Source of the DNA: a virus
IMG/VR virus record: IMGVR_UViG_3300030388_001521
Span: 1-24,605 of that record
Length of the DNA stretch: 24,605 nucleotides
Strand: one strand, 5' to 3'
Part shown: one piece after another, positions 1,369 through 12,189 of the stretch
Layout: every line of letters starts with the position of its first letter
Numbering within the stretch: position 1 is the first letter of the stretch
Position numbers and translations under genes: made by a program
Notes under the pieces: generated by a model
Databases searched by the model: none
The model's input: only the letters and a program-made list of their open reading frames with translations
Told to the model about the DNA's origin: nothing

Positions 1369-2283
1369 ATGGCTTACATAGATCAAAAAAAATATTATAC
1401 TAATAACAGTGTCACCCCAACAGATTTAAATTGGGGCTCTTATCAGTATGTTAGTTTAACAGATATTGTCAATAATTTTCTTTTAATGTTTGATGGGAAT
1501 CATTCTTTAGTGAACAATGAAGAGAGGTTTAAGATTTTGTTTCATGCTAAAAGAGGTATACAGGAATTAAACTATGACGCCTTTAAAGAAATTAAATCAT
1601 TACAACTTACTGTATATTCTGATTTACGCTTTGTATTGCCTTCTGATTATGTAAACTGGGTTCGTATTTCTTTATTTAAAAATAATACCATCCGACCTCT
1701 ATTAGAAAATATACAAGTTCAGTCTGCACTTTCTTATGTACAAACCGCAACAGCTGATTTTACATATGACGTATCTGACAATGTAAATCTTCAAACTTCA
1801 ACTTTAGATTCTTCTAGAACAGATGGATCGTTAAATAGTATTTACTTAAACCAGGCTAATTTAGACCAAGATAATAATCCGCCTTATAATGAAGATTTTT
1901 ACACTACAAATATAGGGGCTCGCTATGGTTTAAATACTGAAACCGCAAACATAAATCCTACGTTTACTATAGATAAAAAAGCAGGAGTCATAAATTTTAA
2001 TTCTACTATGGCAAATGAGCAGTGCATTTTAGAATACATATCAGATGGTATGGAGGGGGGAGATGATTCTTTAATAACGCTAAATAAATTATTTGAAGAT
2101 TATATTTATGCTTATATTAAATACGCCATATTAAACAGTAAATTTGGAGTACAAGAGTATATAGTAAATAGAGCAAGAAAAGATAAAACAGCATTGCTAC
2201 GTAATGCAAAAATACGTTTAAGTAATATTCATCCTGGAAGATTGTTAATGAATATGAGGGGTCAAAACAAGTGGATAAAATAA
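1369..2283 (+). CDS. Ring / tail-tube-like virion protein
   Basis: The protein is 304 residues. The start is fixed by the 2-base gap after the preceding stop and by the conserved N-terminal region (YQYVSLTDIVNNFLLMF, then FHAKRGIQELNYD). The middle has SDLRFVLPSDYVNWVRISLF, and the C-terminal end has ARKDKTALLRNAKIRLSN followed by RGQNKWIK. This arrangement is familiar from podovirus-type phages of Bacteroidetes, where the protein is annotated as a structural or tail tubular protein and probably forms one ring of the portal-tail assembly. There are no enzyme motifs or membrane segments. It is followed one base later by the stabilisation protein gene, in an operon with no visible promoter of its own. 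Assignment to a specific ring is inference. Confidence 0.75.
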   Translation: MAYIDQKKYYTNNSVTPTDLNWGSYQYVSLTDIVNNFLLMFDGNHSLVNNEERFKILFHAKRGIQELNYDAFKEIKSLQLTVYSDLRFVLPSDYVNWVRISLFKNNTIRPLLENIQVQSALSYVQTATADFTYDVSDNVNLQTSTLDSSRTDGSLNSIYLNQANLDQDNNPPYNEDFYTTNIGARYGLNTETANINPTFTIDKKAGVINFNSTMANEQCILEYISDGMEGGDDSLITLNKLFEDYIYAYIKYAILNSKFGVQEYIVNRARKDKTALLRNAKIRLSNIHPGRLLMNMRGQNKWIK

Positions 2284-2284
2284 A

Positions 2285-3322
2285 ATGGCAAGAACGCAAA
2301 GGAATTTTATTGCTGGTCGGATGAATAAAAGCCTTGACGAAAGGCTTATACCAAATGGCGAATATGAAGACGCACTCAATGTAAGGTTGGGGTCTACCGA
2401 AGCGTCAGAAATTGGATCTGTAGAAAACTCAAAAGGAAATACAAGACTCACTGAGTTATTTTTTTTAGATCAAACTGCTTTAAGTACTAGCGCAAGAGCT
2501 ATAGGGGTTTACGAAGATAGTGCTAACGAAACAATATATTGGTTTGTACACGACCCATCTTTTACTTTGTCGGATACAGGGAAATGTGATATGATTTGTT
2601 CTTTTAACACTACTACGGCTCAAGTAACGTACCATGTAGTAAGTACCGATGATGGAACAGGGATATTGACAACGTTAAATTTTAATCCTATAAATTTAAT
2701 TACCGCTGCTGATATGGCGGGAGACTTGTTATTTTTTACTGATAATTTTAATCCTCCTCGTTTTATAAATATTAAAAACAATTATGCAGAGCCGTTATTA
2801 AATGGATTACCTCCTGTAACTCAAACAGGATTATGGAGATTTAAAGCAGGTAAATTTGTTTTAGGCGTATCTACATTTTTAGGATTTCATCAAGGGACTA
2901 TTGAAGGTTGTCCTGTACCACTCGCCCCTTTTGGTCAGGGAGTGGCACCAACAACAACACAAATATTATTACCGGGAATAGATTGTTATACATCTGGAAC
3001 GACACAATATACAAAAGGATATGGCATACAGGGTATTAATTCAGCCCAGGGTTTAGCGCTTACGCAGTTTTCAACAGAATTAAGCACTGGTGTAACAACG
3101 ATAAGCCTAATTAACACAAACACAATAGGAAATCCTGGGGCATCAGGAATATCTGGTACTATTGTAGGAGATGACGGAACTTCAGGAACTTGGTCAGGAT
3201 CATATGTGATAGGCACTTCGTATGCTGATGGGAACTTTGATCCACAACAACCTGAATCAACAGGAACAGTAAGTTTAACTGGAATAACATTAACGGAAAA
3301 CGTAACTTATACTATATCATAA
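2285..3322 (+). CDS. Tail stabilisation / muzzle protein, N-terminal part (split gene)
   Basis: The protein is 345 residues. Residues 1-55 (MARTQRNFIAGRMNKSLDER, then LIPNGEYEDALNVRLGSTE) are the hallmark N-terminus of the large tail stabilisation protein of crAss-like and related Bacteroidetes phages. The match continues through residue about 168 (FTDNFNPPRFINIKNNY). In the usual single-chain protein this leads directly to a segment like IDQFSAESIMVIKKPP, which here appears only at residue 5 of the next gene. Residues about 170-345 are a Thr/Ser/Gly-rich, probably beta-structured stretch that I do not recognise, ending in TAA at 3320-3322. The TAA overlaps the ATG of the next gene by one base (TAATG), a typical arrangement for translational coupling. 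The family call is confident; the insertion reading is inference from remembered family architecture. Confidence 0.75.
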   Translation: MARTQRNFIAGRMNKSLDERLIPNGEYEDALNVRLGSTEASEIGSVENSKGNTRLTELFFLDQTALSTSARAIGVYEDSANETIYWFVHDPSFTLSDTGKCDMICSFNTTTAQVTYHVVSTDDGTGILTTLNFNPINLITAADMAGDLLFFTDNFNPPRFINIKNNYAEPLLNGLPPVTQTGLWRFKAGKFVLGVSTFLGFHQGTIEGCPVPLAPFGQGVAPTTTQILLPGIDCYTSGTTQYTKGYGIQGINSAQGLALTQFSTELSTGVTTISLINTNTIGNPGASGISGTIVGDDGTSGTWSGSYVIGTSYADGNFDPQQPESTGTVSLTGITLTENVTYTIS

Positions 3323-6300
3323 TGGCTTCATATATAGATCAATTTTCCGCAGAGTCAATAATGGTAATTAAAAAACCACCGGCGGCGGCGCCTTCTATTG
3401 TTCCTTTTATCACGGCAACTAAAAATAATTTCGTAGAAGAAAGGTTTATTTGCTTTGGCTATAGATACCAGTATGCAGATGGAGAGTTTTCTGCAACCTC
3501 TCAATTTAGCGAGCCGGCTTTTACGTCCGGGACTTTTAGGTTTAGCACGGGAAGCTTTCTTAATGAAGGAATGCTAAATACTACAAACGCTACTCGAATA
3601 ACATATAACACTGGGGGACCTTTAGTAAAATCAATTGAAATACTATTTAAGGAGCTTACTGATCCTACTATTAAAATTATCGAAAGCTTAAATAAAATAG
3701 ATTTAGGGTTAGGTAATAACGCTTTAGCTGTTTATACTTTTAATAATCAAAAAATATTTAGCGTTCTACCCGAGTATGAAATATTAAGAGCCTATGACAA
3801 CGTACCTCTAGTTGCGAAAGCTCAAACATTAATGGGAAACCGTATGGTATACGGTAACTACGTAGAGGGTTATGATTTAGTAGATCGATTTAATAATGCA
3901 GTACAGTTTAACTATTCAGCAGATCATAAAGTAGAGGAAATAGGGTTAACAAGTTTAGTCAGCTCAAGAGTAGATGGTACTTACCTTTTAGGTAGTAGTG
4001 TTACTATACCTCAATCTAAATTAGAAATGATATTAAATCCTTTAGACTTGGTACAAGGATCGTCACTTCAAATTACCGTACAGCTTCAACATTATTCTTT
4101 TGCCGGGCAAGCTCCCTTTCCTACGGAAACAACTATAGCAACGACAATTAATTTTAACTATACTCTTCCTCAAGCTTTTTCTTCTGTTTACGCTTTATCA
4201 CAAAGCTCAGACTTTGTGGCTAAAATAGGAACATCAGCAAATATACAAACTGTAGCTAACGCTTGTAATGGAGCAACTTTTACAGATATATTTAATTGTT
4301 CTATTCCTGCTCAACTTGATTCTTTTATAAAAAACGCTAGTGGAATAAGCGCTATAAACCAGCCCATAGCTATAACATCTGCACCTAATTCAAACGCAAT
4401 TACACTACAATTCCCAGTTATGCAGTTTGTTGATAATGTGATTACGCCAACACAAACATTTTATGAGTACTACACCTTAACTTTTGATAGTATAGAATAC
4501 ACGAAAGTTTCAAACAATTATTCTTTGCATAGTAACCGGGGTTATGAAGTTGGAATAGTATACATGGATGAATTTAACAGAGCGTCTACTGCTTTAGTAA
4601 GTCCTTTTAATACTGTTCATATTTCATGTGGAGATTCGGCATTCAAAAACTCCATACAAGTAACGATCCCTGGAGGAAGTGTAACTCCTGCTCAAATAGC
4701 TCCATTCTGGGCAAAGAGATATAAGTTTGTTATTAAAGCTGATAGAGATTCTTATAACACAATATATACAAATATTTACTTTGAAGACCCTGATGGAAAT
4801 GTTGTTTATTTTTTACTTGAGGGAGAAAATATAAAAAAAGTAGAAGAGGGAGATAGGTTGATTGTTAAAAGAGATACAACTGGTCCGAGGCAAAATTGTA
4901 CTTTTACAACAGTTTTAGAAAAAACCACGCAACCACCAAATTTAAAAATTCAAGATCCTTTACAACCAGCTGATCCTGACGCTTTAATTGTTATTCCGTC
5001 AGGTGTGTACATGAAATTAAATCCAAATAATTTTATAGTAAACAATGAAGAAACAGCCGGAGGCAATATAGTAGAAGGGCCTCTAATAACAGTAATAGCA
5101 AGATCGGCAGGGACTTATGGAGTTGCAGCTGCTGCTATAACCGTACCAAATCCAGTGGGAGCGGGAGCTACCCGAAATATTGATTATACCGTCCCTGCTG
5201 GGAGTATAGTTAAAATTGAATATTCTACCCGAAGAAATGGTAAGAATAATAAAATGGAGCAGTTGGCGTATGATTTAACATTAGAACTAGAATCTACAAA
5301 AGACTACGATAACTTCAAAGATTTTTTTGATGGCGACAACGTATCTTCTTTACTAGACACTGGTGAGTCTTGTAATGGATGGCCAAGAAATTCCTGTAAT
5401 TTCAGCACCTATTTAACTTCTTATGACAACACATATGAATCACCTCCTACTACAGGAGCTCCAAAAACTATAATTAGACCAGGTGACCCGCAAATAAATG
5501 CCGCATTTGGAACATTATTTTTTAGGTTTTATGAGGACACGAGTAATGGAGTAAAATACCTAATGGCTACAGGCGCAGAGTCTGCGGGAAATGGTGTAAA
5601 TCAAAAAACGTTTACCACTTTAAGGATAGAAGTTGTTAGAGCAGAAACAGCTATAGTATTTGAAACTTTACCACTAGATGCATTGCCAGACGTGTGGTAC
5701 GAGAACAATTTATCTTTACCTATTGATAGTCAAGGGCAGCATGAAGGAAATGTTCAGAATCAAATTATCGACTTTCAAAACACCGGAACCATTACACCTC
5801 AAGCCGCTATTATTGACACAGGGTTTTCTAATTGTATTGCTTTTGGAAACGGTATTGAAAGTTATAAAATTAGAGATTCCATTAACGCAAAAACATTAAA
5901 CTTTGGAAATAGAGCAACTACGACTTCCGCTCGTCTATATAAAAAAGCTCATAGATTTGCGGACTTGACATACAGTGGCATATTCAATGATGAGTCAAAC
6001 GTAAATAAGCTAAATGAATTCAATGTAGGATTACTAAACTTCAAGCCGCTTGAAGACTTATACGGCCCTATAGAAAGGCTTCACGCTAGGCGAACAGATA
6101 TTTTAACCTTGCAAGAGGACAAGATATCCTACGTTCTGCAAGGAAAAGATATTTTAACTGACGCTTCAGGAGGCGGCGCACTAACCTCTGTACCTACCGT
6201 TTTGGGTCAACAGATTGCAAGAGACGAAGAGTTTGGGATAAGTAATAATCCTGAAAGTTTTGCTGTATATGGAGCAGACAAATTTTTTACTGATGCAAAA

Positions 6301-7809
6301 AGAGGCGCGGTTTTAAGATTGCGTGGAGGAGAGTCTGGTCCAGAAGCGTTATCCGTTATATCAGAATCGGGTATGAGAGGATGGTTTAGAGACTTCTTTA
6401 TTGACACAATAGGCAATCAGAAGCTTGGAGGTTATGATCCTTATATGAATGAATTCGTATTGGCCTCTAATGCCGAAAACATTCCTGGATTTACAAATTG
6501 TTTACCTTGTGGATTAACTGAAAATGTGTATGTAAACCCAGGACAAGAAACAATATATTGTGTTAACGTTACTCAAGAAATTGGAACTGTAGCAATAAAC
6601 TATGTTATACCAAACGCTGTAGACGACAATATTATTACAGAAATTAACACCCCTACCACAGGCACAGGGTTACAACAAATTGTTACTCAACAAGATCTTC
6701 CTATTGTTACTGAAGAAACAAACACTGGTATTGGGTATACAATTGAAGCTATCTACAATAACGTATCTTACACTACGGGATTAGTTTTTGTTAGCGGTAC
6801 GCTGTTTGTAAACAAAAACATTGTTGATGCTACGCAAGTAATATTAAGGATAACAACAGACTCACTTTCTCCCGATACGATACAAGTAACGACAGAGTGT
6901 CCAGCAGAAAACCTATTGACAATATATAATATAGCAATAACGAGTAGTAACGAAGCCGGTCAGTTTATTCATAATCAATATTCATGGACTGATAATACTT
7001 TTACCTCCCCACCTCATTCAAAACAAATAACATTTTCCTCCGACACGTCGTCTAATCCTATTGTTTCACAATATGACACAGTAATAGGACCACTGGGCTC
7101 AGGAATAATACCTAATGAAGGGGCATTAGTAAATATTATTAGTAATAAGATAGATACCGACAATTATGTCTTTGACGCAACAACAAATAAATTTAGGTAT
7201 TTACGAACAAACACTTTATATAACAACATATCATTTGATATTGTATCGTTATTAGGAGCTTCTGCAATAGCAACTCCTATTGTTACGACGGGAGATAAAC
7301 ACTCAGCTCAATTTGCAATGCCAAATAATACAGGTGACAAATTGTATTTAATATGGGACTACAGAAAGCCAACACAGGTTTTATTAAACGTAGACAACAC
7401 CGCATACAACGCTTGTTGTAACAACGTGCCAGTTGGACCAGTAATTCAATGTAATGTCGGGACAGGTTTTAGTGGAGGAATAGCATATCCAGACACACAA
7501 GTTATTGAATTAGGCTCAACAACAGGCGTAGTAACCCTAACCTTTCAAGCGTTTAGTGTTCCGGATAGATTTACATTAGAGTTTGATGGTGTGGTAGTTC
7601 TGGACACAGGATATAGAGGAAGCACTGCTAATCAAGGTTTATTAAATAGCGCATTAGCAGCTCTAGGAGCGCCAGCTGCAACAATAACATCACCTGGAAA
7701 CGGAACAGCAACTTTTAATAAAACAACAACAACGCAGACGGCAGTGTTAAAAGTTTATGCACCAATAGCATCTACAGCATGGAATGCTACAGTAAGTTGC
7801 CCAGTATAA
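3322..7809 (+). CDS. Tail stabilisation / muzzle protein, main body (split gene)
   Basis: The protein is 1495 residues. It begins MASYIDQFSAESIMVIKKPP and continues with family landmarks: ERFICFGYRYQYADGEFSA (about 40-60), MGNRMVYGNYVEGYDLVD (about 170-190), and HARRTDILTLQEDKISYV near 921-938. The C-terminal third is beta-rich and ends in an Ala/Thr-rich domain (VPDRFTLEFDGVVVLDTGYR to AWNATVSCPV). This is the body of the large tail stabilisation protein, thought to form the outer collar or muzzle of the short tail. Its start lacks the family N-terminus, which is in the preceding gene one frame away. No other in-frame start upstream gives the missing part. Together the two chains are 1840 residues and presumably assemble as a two-piece protein. 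No signal peptide, protease or hydrolase motif is visible. Confidence 0.8.
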   Translation: MASYIDQFSAESIMVIKKPPAAAPSIVPFITATKNNFVEERFICFGYRYQYADGEFSATSQFSEPAFTSGTFRFSTGSFLNEGMLNTTNATRITYNTGGPLVKSIEILFKELTDPTIKIIESLNKIDLGLGNNALAVYTFNNQKIFSVLPEYEILRAYDNVPLVAKAQTLMGNRMVYGNYVEGYDLVDRFNNAVQFNYSADHKVEEIGLTSLVSSRVDGTYLLGSSVTIPQSKLEMILNPLDLVQGSSLQITVQLQHYSFAGQAPFPTETTIATTINFNYTLPQAFSSVYALSQSSDFVAKIGTSANIQTVANACNGATFTDIFNCSIPAQLDSFIKNASGISAINQPIAITSAPNSNAITLQFPVMQFVDNVITPTQTFYEYYTLTFDSIEYTKVSNNYSLHSNRGYEVGIVYMDEFNRASTALVSPFNTVHISCGDSAFKNSIQVTIPGGSVTPAQIAPFWAKRYKFVIKADRDSYNTIYTNIYFEDPDGNVVYFLLEGENIKKVEEGDRLIVKRDTTGPRQNCTFTTVLEKTTQPPNLKIQDPLQPADPDALIVIPSGVYMKLNPNNFIVNNEETAGGNIVEGPLITVIARSAGTYGVAAAAITVPNPVGAGATRNIDYTVPAGSIVKIEYSTRRNGKNNKMEQLAYDLTLELESTKDYDNFKDFFDGDNVSSLLDTGESCNGWPRNSCNFSTYLTSYDNTYESPPTTGAPKTIIRPGDPQINAAFGTLFFRFYEDTSNGVKYLMATGAESAGNGVNQKTFTTLRIEVVRAETAIVFETLPLDALPDVWYENNLSLPIDSQGQHEGNVQNQIIDFQNTGTITPQAAIIDTGFSNCIAFGNGIESYKIRDSINAKTLNFGNRATTTSARLYKKAHRFADLTYSGIFNDESNVNKLNEFNVGLLNFKPLEDLYGPIERLHARRTDILTLQEDKISYVLQGKDILTDASGGGALTSVPTVLGQQIARDEEFGISNNPESFAVYGADKFFTDAKRGAVLRLRGGESGPEALSVISESGMRGWFRDFFIDTIGNQKLGGYDPYMNEFVLASNAENIPGFTNCLPCGLTENVYVNPGQETIYCVNVTQEIGTVAINYVIPNAVDDNIITEINTPTTGTGLQQIVTQQDLPIVTEETNTGIGYTIEAIYNNVSYTTGLVFVSGTLFVNKNIVDATQVILRITTDSLSPDTIQVTTECPAENLLTIYNIAITSSNEAGQFIHNQYSWTDNTFTSPPHSKQITFSSDTSSNPIVSQYDTVIGPLGSGIIPNEGALVNIISNKIDTDNYVFDATTNKFRYLRTNTLYNNISFDIVSLLGASAIATPIVTTGDKHSAQFAMPNNTGDKLYLIWDYRKPTQVLLNVDNTAYNACCNNVPVGPVIQCNVGTGFSGGIAYPDTQVIELGSTTGVVTLTFQAFSVPDRFTLEFDGVVVLDTGYRGSTANQGLLNSALAALGAPAATITSPGNGTATFNKTTTTQTAVLKVYAPIASTAWNATVSCPV

Positions 7810-7821
7810 AATAAAAAAATT

Positions 7822-9018
7822 ATGGCAGTAGGAACATATTATTTTGACACCGCAACTTTTGCAAACGCAACTACGGTTTATACTGACTTAGCTTTAACTT
7901 TGGTTGCCCCAAACGGATTTTATTCTGATGACACTATAGTTAGAGAGCAAATTAATGGACAGCTGCAAGTAGCGGAAACTTGTGACTGTGCCGGCATGCC
8001 GGTGTCACCATCAATATTTACTGTTACTCAAAACGTATCGAATGGAATTACGGGGGTTTTAGGGGTAGATTATACTTTAAGTGGAAATGGATATGATGGA
8101 GCTAATCCAGCAGGACCACTTACTCAGTCTGGCCCAGAATTAACTTTGTACTCATTTATAATTGACGCTACCCCCGCCGCGGGGTTGCAGTTTTCAGTAG
8201 GGGCTCCCTTTAGCGCTACCAACCCAAATGGTTCAATTCCTGCTTCGGACACAACCGTAACAAATACCCTTGCGGGAACTATTGAGCCTATTCCAACGCC
8301 GGTCGTTTCTAGTTTTTATTACAGGCTAACTCCGTGTTTCCCTTGTGACACAAACGAATACAGATATATAGGTCCGGATACAGTAGGGCCTGGAGATCAG
8401 CAACGATTTTTAGATCCTAATTCTGGATGTTATTACAAATATGTTCCAGGAGGCTTTACAAACCCTCCTGCGGTGTTTATAAACGAAGATCTACTAATTA
8501 ATGCTGAATCAATCCCAGGAGAGTTTGGCTGTCCTGTGGTAACAAGTCTTAATTATTATGTTGTAAGAAGTTGTGCAACAAACGAGAATTATGTAATGGA
8601 GACAGAGGAGACCTACGCTCTTAATACTAGAATATCTTATGATCAAGATTTATATATAGTGGTGGGTAACGCTAATGGTCTAGGTGGAGGTTATACAACT
8701 CTTCCGACGTCTCCTTGTGTTGATGAGCAAAACAGAGCAGATGGTGACCCTGGATTTACTGGATGTGCAACAGACTGTGGTGGATCTCAATACTTACGTT
8801 TAGCAGAGTGTACGACAGGAATTCAGCCTATAACACAATCCTTAAATACAGCAGGTTTTTGGTATGCTCTAGGCTTTGCAGTGAACGACTATGTTTATGC
8901 GCCAGAAACTCAAAAATGTTATCAAATTACCTCTGAAACTACTGATCGTATTGAAATTATTGATTTGACAGGAATGAATATAATCGCAAGTTGTAGCCAG
9001 TGTACTGGGGATGATTAA
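7822..9018 (+). CDS. Cysteine-repeat tail protein (putative appendage or receptor-binding)
   Basis: The protein is 398 residues, starting 12 bases after the muzzle gene behind an A-rich tract with no Shine-Dalgarno. The N-terminus (AVGTYYFDTATFANATTVY) resembles short phage tail proteins that follow the stabilisation gene in Bacteroidetes phages. Residues 164-398 contain three imperfect repeats of 79 residues, anchored by C172, C251 and C330. Each opens with an aromatic/Arg strand (FYYRLTPC, YYVVRSC, YLRLAEC) and closes near another Cys or Cys pair. The protein has 14 cysteines in total, unusual for a cytoplasmically made phage protein, so disulfides or metal binding after release are possible. 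I place it as an external tail appendage by context and composition; receptor binding is inference. Confidence 0.6.
   Translation: MAVGTYYFDTATFANATTVYTDLALTLVAPNGFYSDDTIVREQINGQLQVAETCDCAGMPVSPSIFTVTQNVSNGITGVLGVDYTLSGNGYDGANPAGPLTQSGPELTLYSFIIDATPAAGLQFSVGAPFSATNPNGSIPASDTTVTNTLAGTIEPIPTPVVSSFYYRLTPCFPCDTNEYRYIGPDTVGPGDQQRFLDPNSGCYYKYVPGGFTNPPAVFINEDLLINAESIPGEFGCPVVTSLNYYVVRSCATNENYVMETEETYALNTRISYDQDLYIVVGNANGLGGGYTTLPTSPCVDEQNRADGDPGFTGCATDCGGSQYLRLAECTTGIQPITQSLNTAGFWYALGFAVNDYVYAPETQKCYQITSETTDRIEIIDLTGMNIIASCSQCTGDD
8311..9015 (+). repeat. Three 79-residue cysteine-anchored protein repeats
   Basis: Repeat units cover residues 164-242, 243-321 and 322-398 of the tail protein. The first Cys of each unit (C172, C251, C330) is spaced exactly 79 residues apart. 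Later Cys in each unit (C203/C237, C299/C315/C319, C366/C391/C394) are spaced less regularly. At the nucleotide level the copies have diverged too far to be obvious direct repeats. Confidence 0.7.
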
Positions 9019-9063: not shown

Positions 9064-10275
9064 ATGGAATCTATATTTATACAAATTGCTAGCTATCGCG
9101 ACCCTGAGCTTATACCCACTATTGATGACTTACTTGCTAATGCTGACAATCCAGAGAGCCTAACAATATGCATTGCTCATCAACACAGTAAAGAGGATGC
9201 ATGGGATACTCTAGAAAAGTACGCGCTGGATGGACGGTTTATAATTATAGACATACCACACTTAGAATCACAAGGTGCTTGCTGGGCAAGAAATCAAATA
9301 CAACAACACTATAATGGGGAAACATATACATTGCAGCTAGACTCACATCATAGGTTTGTAAAAGGTTGGGATACTTTGTCTATCAATATGTTAAAAGATT
9401 TACAATCAAAAGGATATAAAAAACCCATGCTTACTGGTTATATTCCTTCGTATAATCCAAAAAAAGACCCAGAGGATAGACATCAAGTCCCGTGGGGTAT
9501 GTTGTTTGACAAATTCATTGATGAGGGTATTGTTTTTTTTAAACCTTATCACGTTAACGATTTACCCGCTAATCCTATTAAAGCAAGATTTTATTCTGCA
9601 CATTTTGCATTTACTTTAGGGGAATTTAGCACTGAAGTACAACACGATCCTTTGCTATATTTTCATGGAGAAGAAATAACTATAAGCGTTAGGGCCTTTA
9701 CACACGGTTACGATTTGTTTCACCCTCATAAGGTTATAGCTTGGCATGAATACACAAGGGAGGGAAGAACAAAACATTGGAACGATGACCTAAGTTGGTC
9801 TCATAAAAACATAGTGTCACATACAAGAACTAAAACTTTACTCGGGGTAGACGGTCTCGTTTGTACACCGTGTAACGCTAAAAGTTTTGAAAAATATAAT
9901 GTAGGGACTCAACGAACAATAAGTGATTATGAACTATACGCCGGTATACGGTTTAAAGATAGGGCAGTTACGCAGGCTTGTAAGAACAATGATCCACCTC
10001 CGGGAAATTTAACAGATAGGTATCTGACAAAGTTTAATTATTCTTTTACTTTTAATGCGAGCAGTTTTACTAAACAAGATTATGAATTTGCAGCGCTGAT
10101 ACTACAAGATAATAAGGGCAAAGAAGTATATAGAAAAGACTACTTTTATTTTACATCTATCTTAGACAGCCCAACATTTAAGATTAATGAAAACATAGTT
10201 ACACCTTATAAATGGATTATATGGAGCTACTCAAAAACTAATGGCTGGGCTGAACGGATCGAAGGTTTGATATAA
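9064..10275 (+). CDS. GlcNAc-transferase-like glycosyltransferase (GT60-like)
   Basis: The protein is 403 residues. Residues 1-70 read as the nucleotide-sugar fold of the family Pfam names Glycosyltransferase (GlcNAc): IFIQIASYRDPELIPTI, then HLESQGACWARNQIQ. The metal/sugar-nucleotide motif is LDSHHRF at 92-98, a DxH variant of DxD. HGEE at 201-204 and AWHEY near 226 are further family landmarks. Residues about 280-403 form an extra C-terminal domain I do not recognise. Family members add GlcNAc-type sugars to protein; the eukaryotic prototype modifies hydroxyproline on Skp1. The gene lies between a tail protein and a Pro/Thr-rich virion-type protein, after a 45-base A/T-rich gap, so a virion or host-surface substrate is likely. 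The acceptor is unknown. No membrane segment or signal peptide is seen, so it should act in the cytoplasm. Confidence 0.85.
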   Translation: MESIFIQIASYRDPELIPTIDDLLANADNPESLTICIAHQHSKEDAWDTLEKYALDGRFIIIDIPHLESQGACWARNQIQQHYNGETYTLQLDSHHRFVKGWDTLSINMLKDLQSKGYKKPMLTGYIPSYNPKKDPEDRHQVPWGMLFDKFIDEGIVFFKPYHVNDLPANPIKARFYSAHFAFTLGEFSTEVQHDPLLYFHGEEITISVRAFTHGYDLFHPHKVIAWHEYTREGRTKHWNDDLSWSHKNIVSHTRTKTLLGVDGLVCTPCNAKSFEKYNVGTQRTISDYELYAGIRFKDRAVTQACKNNDPPPGNLTDRYLTKFNYSFTFNASSFTKQDYEFAALILQDNKGKEVYRKDYFYFTSILDSPTFKINENIVTPYKWIIWSYSKTNGWAERIEGLI

Positions 10276-10297
10276 AAACTAACTAAAAAAAAAATTG

Positions 10298-10305
10298 TAA
10301 TTTTG
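10298..10305 (+). promoter_or_regulatory. TAnnTTTG -7 promoter element before the Pro/Thr-hinge gene
   Basis: TAATTTTG ends 5 bases before the ATG at 10311, preceded by a ten-base A-tract (10285-10294). No TTTG lies at the ideal distance for a -33 element; the nearest, at 10266-10269, is 28 bases away. If active, transcription would start at or next to the ATG, giving a leaderless message. The motif alone is expected by chance every 1-2 kb in such AT-rich DNA, so the location is the evidence. Confidence 0.5.
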
Positions 10306-10310
10306 CATCT

Positions 10311-11756
10311 ATGAGCGTATTAACATTCTGCGGGCAAACAGTTACAACAGGTCAAAATACTGGACAGACAATGGGTGGTCAAGCAGCGCCATCTGGATGG
10401 GGCAAAGGCGTTTTAACGGTTGCTAACATAACAACAATCACTTTGCCTTGTGATTTAATTATCGACGATGTAAATAGACCTTTTGTTCAGGCTAACTATG
10501 CTTCTTCTGGGTCTCAAGCTGATACTATTGGAATAATGGGTTATATAGCTGAGACTTCCGGAGGTGTAGTAGTAAGTTTTGTGCCTAGATTCGTTATACA
10601 AACTCCAGGTGTTAGCGCAGTAGCTGATTTTCTAAATCCTGTAGTAAAAGTTTTAACTACTGGAATTATTACTGCTGGCAATATTTTACGTGCTGGAGAC
10701 TATACAATTGTAACTCTAACGCCAGTTGGACTTGACAGGAGCAACCCTTACGATAATGTAGCAGCTGGGACTGGGTTTATCTGTTTAAGAGGAACCTGTG
10801 TAACACCTACAGTAACTCCTGTCGTACCTTTAGTGCCTACGCCAATACCGTCAGTTACTCCCTCACCTGGTCCTGCACCCACGCCTTTTCCGGTTCCTAC
10901 ACCTAGGCCTGCGCCGATTCTTCCAAATCCTGTTCCTACTCCACTTATACCTCAAAGTGCTCAATACACTTTATCATACAGCGAAAACTCTAAGGGGTGG
11001 CCTTCTTTTTATTCATATAACCCTGACTACATGGTGGGGATGAATAATTATTTTTATACATTTTCACAAGGGAACTTATACAGACATAACACTAATGATT
11101 TAAGAAATAATTTTTATGACGTACAGTATAACTCTACTGTAACCAGTGTAATAAATGAGCTACCTATTACAACTAAAATATTTCAAACAATTAATTTGCA
11201 GTCAGACGAACCGTGGACAGTTACACTTAATACAGACCTACAAAATAACGGGTTTATCAGTAATGAGTGGTTTGAACTTAAGGAAGGATCTTGGTATGCA
11301 GCTGTGAAGAACACAACAATCTCACCTACAGTCATATCAAATTTTGCTTCAAGAGCTATTAATGGGATAGGACGAGCAGATAATTACTTTGGTCTACCAT
11401 CAACACGACAGTTTGATTTTATTTCTAATCCAAGTTTTAGTATCGGATCTATATTGAGTATAGGAGATTTTTTATATTACAACAACGAACTAACCAATAC
11501 TCCAATGCTAGCTGGACAAGTTATACAGATTAACATTAACTTAATGTTAAATATAAACAACATAGTAGTAGACGCTAGTATAGATGGCGCAAGTTCTCCT
11601 GACGTCTTAAATCCTTACGTTATAGGTGTTAAAAACGATACGGCGGAGTCTTATGGGTTACTAGGGCATTTCTGTAGATTTACAATAGAAAATATTGGGC
11701 CATCACCAACGGAGCTCTTTGCTGTACAAGCTGAGCTAATGAAAAGCTATCCATAA
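10311..11756 (+). CDS. Virion-type protein with Pro/Thr-rich hinge
   Basis: The protein is 481 residues in three parts. Residues 1-163 are a Gly/Thr-rich beta-like domain (MSVLTFCGQTVTTGQNTG onward). Residues 165-215 are a low-complexity hinge with 21 prolines alternating with Thr, Val, Ser and Ala. Residues 216-481 start with KGWPSFYSYNPDYMVGMNN, FYTFSQGNLYRHN and RNNFYDVQY, a motif series seen in structural or tail proteins of Bacteroidetes phages. The hinge resembles linkers of secreted cell-surface proteins and suggests two domains held apart on the virion surface. It is directly downstream of the glycosyltransferase and has its own candidate -7 element. A tail fibre or appendage is my best reading; I cannot assign a receptor or enzyme activity. 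Confidence 0.6.
   Translation: MSVLTFCGQTVTTGQNTGQTMGGQAAPSGWGKGVLTVANITTITLPCDLIIDDVNRPFVQANYASSGSQADTIGIMGYIAETSGGVVVSFVPRFVIQTPGVSAVADFLNPVVKVLTTGIITAGNILRAGDYTIVTLTPVGLDRSNPYDNVAAGTGFICLRGTCVTPTVTPVVPLVPTPIPSVTPSPGPAPTPFPVPTPRPAPILPNPVPTPLIPQSAQYTLSYSENSKGWPSFYSYNPDYMVGMNNYFYTFSQGNLYRHNTNDLRNNFYDVQYNSTVTSVINELPITTKIFQTINLQSDEPWTVTLNTDLQNNGFISNEWFELKEGSWYAAVKNTTISPTVISNFASRAINGIGRADNYFGLPSTRQFDFISNPSFSIGSILSIGDFLYYNNELTNTPMLAGQVIQININLMLNINNIVVDASIDGASSPDVLNPYVIGVKNDTAESYGLLGHFCRFTIENIGPSPTELFAVQAELMKSYP
10803..10955 (+). other. Pro/Thr-rich hinge (51 residues, 21 Pro)
   Basis: Residues 165-215 of the 481-residue protein alternate proline with Thr, Val, Ser, Ala and Phe, with almost no charged residues (one Arg). 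It includes runs such as VPTPIPSVTPSPGPAPTP. This composition is typical of extended, protease-resistant and often O-glycosylated linkers. It is flanked on both sides by folded-looking domains. Confidence 0.85.
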
Positions 11757-11778: not shown

Positions 11779-12189
11779 ATGGAGTTTAATATTCGTAAAC
11801 TAAATTCTACTGACTACGATAGCGTATTAGTAGGTTGGTGGAAAGACTGGGGATGGGAGCCTCCTGCTAAAGATTTTTTACCAGATAATGGTGAAGGAGG
11901 TTTAATAGTATTAGATGGAGACGTTCCTGTTTGTGCGGGATTTATTTATATAACTAATTCAAAAGTAGCCTGGGTAAACTGGATTATTTCTGACAAAAGT
12001 TTTGAGAATAAAGAAAATAGAAATAAAGCTATCGAAGTATTGTTAAAAAAGTTAGTGTCAATGGCTGTTAAAAATAAAAACTCTTATGTGTTTGCTAGCA
12101 ATAACAACCTATCTTTAATTCAAAGGTTTGTAAATATAGGTTTTACTAAAGGATGTGAGAATACAACGGAAATAATATTTAAGATTTAA
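11779..12189 (+). CDS. GNAT-family N-acetyltransferase
   Basis: The protein is 136 residues, somewhat shorter than a typical GNAT. The opening (FNIRKLNSTDYDSVLVGWWK, then PPAKDFLPDNGEGGLIVLDG) and VPVCAGFIYITNSKVAWVNW match a small acetyltransferase-like family often found in phage structural regions. The later part has a helix (NRNKAIEVLLKKLV) and a C-terminal strand/helix with LIQRFVNIGFTKG, as in the GNAT acetyl-CoA fold. The usual acetyl-CoA loop (QxxGxG/A) is not clearly present; NRNKA sits where it should be, so catalysis is uncertain. The gene is placed between appendage and ejection-protein genes with its own candidate promoter, which suggests an accessory cargo gene. Substrate unknown. 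Confidence 0.7.
   Translation: MEFNIRKLNSTDYDSVLVGWWKDWGWEPPAKDFLPDNGEGGLIVLDGDVPVCAGFIYITNSKVAWVNWIISDKSFENKENRNKAIEVLLKKLVSMAVKNKNSYVFASNNNLSLIQRFVNIGFTKGCENTTEIIFKI

Follow-up and report, generated by a model that had tools for sequence, protein, structure and literature searches.

Co-occurrence and fold suggest that crAss-like phages O-glycosylate Pro/Thr-rich linkers at the tail tip

The DNA analysed here, positions 1 to 24,605 of the virus record IMGVR_UViG_3300030388_001521 (24,605 bases; hereafter the window), is a late-block fragment of an uncultured crAss-like phage, in which a gene encoding a glycosyltransferase precedes a gene encoding a protein with a hinge rich in proline and threonine (Pro/Thr). 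Judging from sequence and structural modeling, we consider it likely that the phage enzyme carries out mucin-type O-glycosylation of tail-tip linkers and that the hinge of the window is one of its acceptors. An initial annotation of the window had proposed, from adjacency and composition alone, that the two proteins are enzyme and acceptor and that the phage thereby modifies a linker of its own appendage. A survey of related loci now supports this idea. It is favored by the co-occurrence of enzyme and tract, by an enrichment of Thr-Pro repeats where non-crAss phages carry the enzyme and by a comparison of paralogs in Burkholderiales, whereas the frequent occurrence of the enzyme without a nearby Pro/Thr protein outside crAss-like phages speaks against it.

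The glycosyltransferase and the hinge protein

Both open reading frames (ORFs) lie where they had been annotated (Table 1), on a common strand and with a gap of 35 bp between them, in which no terminator-like site was found. The product of the first matches Pfam family PF11397, 'Glycosyltransferase (GlcNAc)', with an E value of 2.4e-72 and 244.8 bits (gathering cut-off 21), and phrog_24687, 'glycosyltransferase', across nearly its full length, which bears out its annotation as a member of a GlcNAc-type glycosyltransferase family. Its AlphaFold model, built with 21 homologs, has a mean pLDDT of 89.8. Sequence searches of the PDB with this protein returned nothing useful, unlike the fold search with Foldseek, whose top PDB matches are polypeptide GalNAc-transferases, which initiate O-glycosylation of the mucin type (6e7i, E 5e-11, 12% identity; GalNAc-T2, T4, T1 and T12 are among the matches). 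The D93-S94-H95 (DxH) motif is invariant across 21 homologous sequences, and presumably is the counterpart of the metal-binding motif of the polypeptide GalNAc-transferases. On the one hand, these transferases provide the closest solved folds and share the DSH motif; on the other hand, at about 12% identity the window enzyme falls outside their family by sequence, and a Pfam scan detects PF11397 alone, with no ricin-type lectin domain. Residues 300-403 form another small beta domain in the model, and the catalytic fold begins right at the N-terminus, the sequence showing no apparent signal or membrane segment. A role in DNA modification was ruled out, since proteins are the substrates of this family and its gene here is placed among tail genes.

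We take PF11397 to be equivalent to the GT60 family. GT60 includes Skp1 Gnt1 as well as the mucin-type polypeptide alpha-GlcNAc-transferases of Dictyostelium and Trypanosoma cruzi (PMC8724618, PMC6939170). The window enzyme shares the Pfam family with all of these, a soluble form lacking a signal peptide with Skp1 Gnt1, and Pro/Thr-rich putative acceptors with the mucin-type members (PMC8724618). It differs from known GT60 enzymes in being phage-encoded, in carrying an extra C-terminal beta domain of ~95 aa and in its presumed acceptor, a virion linker, both donor and acceptor being predicted.

The second product contains the annotated 51-residue hinge with 21 prolines at residues 164-214 (nt 10800-10952), VTPTVTPVVPLVPTPIPSVTPSPGPAPTPFPVPTPRPAPILPNPVPTPLIP, which also holds 8 Thr and 2 Ser. 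Proline makes up 3.9% of the window proteins; against this background a hinge of such composition has a binomial tail of 1e-16 at each of ~8,100 positions, and is therefore not due to chance. An origin from a DNA microsatellite was ruled out by the mixed codons for proline (CCT 13, CCA 3, CCG 3, CCC 2) and threonine (ACA 3, ACT 3, ACG 2, ACC 1) and by Tandem Repeats Finder, which reported nothing at the hinge. The model of this protein is good in the N-terminal domain and poor in the C-terminal part (mean pLDDT 61), and the hinge has no secondary structure and low confidence. By sequence, the C-terminal part matches PF25729, the crassvirus muzzle C-terminal domain (E 2e-16). Searches of PDB sequences yielded nothing but weak chance matches and Pro-rich linkers of other proteins that matched by composition, and Foldseek matches to viral jelly rolls were too weak to be used.

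Association of enzyme and tract

crAss-like loci were fetched by the enzyme and, separately, by the hinge protein. In the dereplicated set, enzyme and tract occur together in 23 loci and are both absent from 26, while five loci have the enzyme only and two the tract only (Fisher 1e-8, a value inflated by shared descent); a Pro/Thr tract thus accompanies GT60 in 23 of 28 loci, and the co-occurrence that the initial annotation had named as a check is seen in relatives with these seven exceptions. Both tract-only loci (L050 and L051) carry a prolyl 4-hydroxylase-like gene, and enzyme-less crAss-like phages that share the muzzle domain lack the hinge, except for a lineage in which a prolyl 4-hydroxylase neighbors Pro-rich linkers. 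Wherever a complete crAss-like locus has the enzyme, the enzyme gene lies between those of the muzzle body and the muzzle C-terminal domain. Across whole crAss-like records, TPTPTP-coding sites are present in 11 of 20 with GT60 and in 0 of 17 without it.

The location of the tract varies: it may lie in the hinge of the C-terminal protein, as in the window, in a stand-alone N-domain ORF (L040-L049), in the c9 protein encoded upstream of the enzyme, or in the muzzle. The hinge is the candidate acceptor of the window; in relatives it is not the hinge alone that would serve. The c9 homologs of L003, L005, L007, L029, L030, L032, L033 and L036 have tracts of 17-23 Pro per 50 aa, and c9 tracts in relatives reach 23 Pro or 20 Thr in 50 residues; we propose the c9 protein as a second acceptor in these relatives, the c9 protein of the window (7822-9018) having no Pro/Thr tract. 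In L039 a 1052-aa protein (2038-5193) adjoining the enzyme has 100 Pro and 153 Thr within a stretch of 353 residues.

Outside the crAss-like group, the alignment query for the enzyme gave at least 585 confirmed stretches, the best 80 of which were kept. After dereplication of the non-crAss enzyme proteins, a Pro/Thr tract gene is found in the locus in 19 of 53 cases as compared with 5 of 54 control loci (p 0.001), and it directly adjoins the enzyme 9 times, versus 3.7 by permutation (p 0.002). TPTPTP-coding sites occur in 16/26 enzyme-bearing records of these other phages and in 3/19 enzyme-free controls, and for all phage records together coding for Thr-Pro repeats is seen in 27/46 versus 3/36. 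The controls outside the crAss-like group had been drawn for Ala-Pro repeats and are shorter on average, being neither a random nor a length-matched sample of phages. In the reverse direction, GT60 is present in 8 of 120 loci drawn by a Thr-Pro repeat pattern and in 0 of 119 drawn by an Ala-Pro pattern (p 0.007).

Cultured phages are among the carriers. ORF334 of Xanthomonas phage XacN1 is a homolog of the window enzyme (41% identity over 99%), as is a gene of Stenotrophomonas phage RAS14 (45% identity), and their genomes hold 29 and 19 TPTPTP sites, respectively, against 0 and 1 for the reversed-pattern control. ORF232-237 of XacN1 are paralogs with Pro/Thr tracts. At least two glycoproteins were reported in the XacN1 virion, and the authors suggested phage glycosyltransferases as the cause (PMC5852040). 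XacN1 thus resembles the window in its enzyme homolog, its virion glycoproteins and its Pro/Thr-rich ORFs; it differs in being a jumbo myovirus whose enzyme lies away from the Pro/Thr ORFs, and the published text consulted does not name the glycosylated proteins.

A third setting is the type VI secretion system (T6SS) of Burkholderiales, where a PF11397 enzyme gene is found near the spike gene vgrG. All 12 VgrG proteins encoded near such a gene end in repeats such as (TP)n, PPPSE, ETPD or PPPTE (the loci L452, L469, L457, L461, L464, L467 and six more). Not all of these tails are rich in Thr, those of L461, L457 and some others being rich in Ser instead. Six genomes allow a comparison with paralogs: in all six, the VgrG encoded within a few kb of the enzyme carries a Pro-(Thr/Ser) repeat tail, whereas none of the 24 other VgrG-like loci of the same genomes has one.

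Several observations weigh against an enzyme-acceptor relationship. No Pro/Thr protein is encoded within ~10 kb of the enzyme in 34 of the 53 dereplicated non-crAss phage loci and in 55 of 79 bacterial loci; the initial annotation had named frequent occurrence of the enzyme alone as grounds for giving up the pairing, and for the non-crAss loci this is in part what is found. Conversely, 112 of the 120 Thr-Pro-repeat loci have no GT60 in the locus. A crAss-like clade (L138, L146, L149, L152 and L154) has the enzyme and no tract above threshold, and the hinge of the window, with 8 Thr and 2 Ser in 51 residues, is among the Thr-poorer tracts. Linkers of similar composition are also common as plain spacers. 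Furthermore, enzyme and tract each change about three times on the crAss-like tree, leaving two to three independent contrasts, too few events for a tree-based sign test; the crAss-like correlation alone therefore proves little.

Alternatively, tract and enzyme, both common in aquatic phages, could be functionally unrelated and adjoin one another through hitch-hiking in a tail locus that is variable. The scarcity of independent events in crAss-like phages, the presence of both features in variable tail regions and the usual lack of the enzyme from loci with Thr-Pro repeats would fit such a view. Yet enzyme and tract are associated in at least three unrelated settings, namely crAss-like phages, further phages (jumbo phages among them) and Burkholderiales VgrG with its within-genome paralog control, and a hydroxylase is present where a Pro-rich tract exists without the enzyme; we regard hitch-hiking as very unlikely. 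Likewise, the enzyme could alter a host surface molecule (lipopolysaccharide, capsule or surface protein) to exclude superinfecting phage or to change the receptor, the hinge being a flexible spacer. Serotype-changing glycosyltransferases are known in temperate phages (PMC12619734), and the bacterial PF11397 genes that have no Pro/Thr protein nearby, together with many non-crAss phage loci of the same kind, are compatible with this role. It is nevertheless improbable, as the gene sits inside the tail block and not among early or lysogeny genes, the protein begins directly with its catalytic fold and has no apparent export or membrane-anchoring segment, its fold matches polypeptide transferases, and it is statistically tied to Thr-Pro repeats.

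Threonine versus hydroxyproline

The initial annotation had taken Skp1 modification as the prototype; the family is right, but the hydroxyproline half of the analogy is probably wrong. By a Skp1-like route, prolines of the hinge would be hydroxylated and the enzyme would put GlcNAc on hydroxyproline, which is what Skp1 Gnt1, a GT60 member, requires (PMC6939170). In favor of this route, related crAss-like phages have a prolyl 4-hydroxylase beside Pro-rich linkers, and GT60 and hydroxylase are found together in six loci at a strict cut-off. However, no PF13640 hydroxylase was found in 16 GT60-bearing crAss-like records, two of them 58.6 kb long, and no prolyl hydroxylase among the scanned ORFs of the window, itself a 24.6 kb fragment. 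Moreover, tracts with GT60 only are marked by threonine, which precedes 58% of their prolines as opposed to 35% in tracts with hydroxylase only. The Skp1-like route thus appears quite unlikely for the window. Since no prolyl hydroxylase was found and since the Thr:Ser ratio is 7.6 in the linkers as compared with 1.4 in the rest of the same proteins, threonine, as in mucin-type glycosylation, is the likely acceptor in the window clade. Tract composition follows the enzyme, which argues for a threonine acceptor in the window clade and for hydroxyproline chemistry in the hydroxylase set.

In the latter set, L050 and L051 combine Pro-rich tracts with homologous hydroxylase genes and lack GT60; the L050 hydroxylase matches solved prolyl 4-hydroxylases at 2e-25, and this locus additionally has an O-fucosyltransferase-like gene and a carbamoyltransferase gene. 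Among 40 loci fetched as relatives of the hydroxylase, 38 have a Pro-rich tract and most have the muzzle C-terminal domain. Hydroxyproline is a possible constituent of the virion in hydroxylase-bearing crAss-like phages. In the crAss-like set comprising L050, L051 and L547-L585, the prolyl 4-hydroxylase gene lies beside Pro-rich tail linkers, and some members also carry GT60. Islands with GT60 or the hydroxylase repeatedly include a carbamoyltransferase gene (L513, which is XacN1, 9412-11709; L025, 11080-12690; L050, 5715-7148), whose product perhaps caps the glycan.

Proposed mechanism and wider significance

We propose that the window enzyme is a cytosolic, phage-encoded mucin-type protein O-glycosyltransferase (GT60-like), whose expression probably coincides with that of the late tail genes and which would act before assembly. 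It would add HexNAc, most likely alpha-GlcNAc, to Thr and less often to Ser in Pro-rich tail-tip linkers, the putative acceptor in the window being the hinge between the N-terminal beta domain and the muzzle C-terminal domain. In relatives, it may act on tracts of the neighboring c9 protein, of the separate N-domain protein or of the muzzle. Some loci have a DXD glycosyltransferase, an HtrL/YibB-type gene or an FkbM methyltransferase inserted between the enzyme and the C-terminal gene, whose products may lengthen or cap the glycan. A linker modified in this way would likely be stiffened, extended and shielded from proteases; altered receptor contact, which the initial annotation had named next to protection, would be another candidate benefit. 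Gene families, enzyme fold, composition and co-occurrence are observed here, whereas co-expression, chemistry, sugar, modified residues and benefit are inferred.

To our knowledge, glycosylation of phage virion proteins has been described in few cases only. Phage-encoded glycosyltransferases are considered to modify virion proteins in mycobacteriophages (Freeman et al. 2023, cited in PMC11256854 and PMC12619734). The likeness to the window lies in phage enzymes acting on virion proteins; according to these citing papers the targets there are the C-termini of capsid and tail tube subunits, unlike the Pro/Thr tail-tip linkers and the mucin-type initiating enzyme considered here. Phage-encoded virion glycosylation and the enzyme family are already known; no paper describing the pairing of GT60 with Thr-Pro linkers was found in the open literature, which omits most subscription journals.

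More tentatively, and with somewhat less than even confidence, we suggest that phages and T6SS VgrG proteins share a dedicated modification of Pro-rich tail linkers, by GT60 on Thr/Ser-Pro repeats, by prolyl 4-hydroxylase with other sugar enzymes, or by both. If so, bacterial viruses would have mucin-type and hydroxyproline-type glycoproteins of their own, the latter like the hydroxyproline-rich glycoproteins of plants. Already the mechanism proposed for the window would bring mucin-type O-glycosylation to environmental crAss-like and jumbo phages and tie it to T6SS spikes. A GT60 gene together with Thr-Pro repeats would be a recognizable genomic signature of virion glycosylation, and the cultured phages identified here are ones in which mass spectrometry could decide.

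Organization of the tail block

Table 1. Features of the tail block in the window.
Feature	Position	Strand	Remarks
Muzzle N-terminal piece, 345 aa	2285..3322	+	PF25731; separate from body gene
Muzzle body, 1495 aa	3322..7809	+	phrog_14478; Pro/Thr tract in L005 and L039 homologs
c9 protein, 398 aa	7822..9018	+	Tyr/Cys repeat motifs YYRLTPC, YYVVRSC
GT60/PF11397-type glycosyltransferase, 403 aa	9064..10275	+	GT-A part ~1-300, ~95-aa C-terminal beta domain, D93-S94-H95
Proposed acceptor, 481 aa	10311..11756	+	N-terminal beta domain, Pro/Thr hinge, muzzle C-terminal domain (PF25729)
N-terminal beta domain, residues 1-163	10311..10799	+	pLDDT mostly 80-93; stand-alone ORF in L040-L049
Pro/Thr hinge, residues 164-214	10800..10952	+	21 Pro, 8 Thr, 2 Ser; proposed O-glycosylation sites
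Crassvirus muzzle C-terminal domain, residues 217-481	10959..11756	+	PF25729

The order of genes, 5' to 3', is virion genes, muzzle N-terminus, muzzle body, c9, glycosyltransferase, hinge protein, three conserved genes and an ORF of 2860 aa. The glycosyltransferase gene sits between the muzzle and muzzle C-terminal genes on the same strand and with short spacers. The window has Crassvirales markers (PF25731 at 2e-8, PF25729 at 2e-16 and phrog_14478 at 3e-185), and by these family matches the block is recognized as a crAss-like muzzle. The initial annotation had spoken correctly of a structural block, given the match of the upstream genes to the crAssvirus muzzle (PF25731/phrog_14478) and of the hinge protein to PF25729, and had missed its identity. 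Muzzle gp44 of crAss001 (PMC10172136) belongs to the same family at the tail end, with PF25731 and PF25729; in contrast to gp44, the window muzzle is divided among separate ORFs, its C-terminal domain forming a protein of its own with a linker and an added N-terminal domain.

At the split (window 2285-7809) the stop codon of the 345-aa ORF overlaps the ATG of the 1495-aa ORF; the N-terminal piece has homologs in 34 loci, and the muzzle is apparently unsplit in L017, L018 and L066. In L138 and L152, which have the enzyme without a strong tract, the muzzle contains a short PTPTPGPDVTP segment. Directly 3' of the muzzle C-terminal gene (window 11779-12189) lies a gene for a 136-aa protein, GNAT acetyltransferase-like by sequence appearance, although it matched no Pfam family; this protein family is conserved in 65 loci irrespective of the enzyme. 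The c9 protein of the window and its homologs have recurring Tyr/Cys motifs of the form YYxLxxC, which in relatives follow Pro/Thr tracts, like beads joined by linkers.

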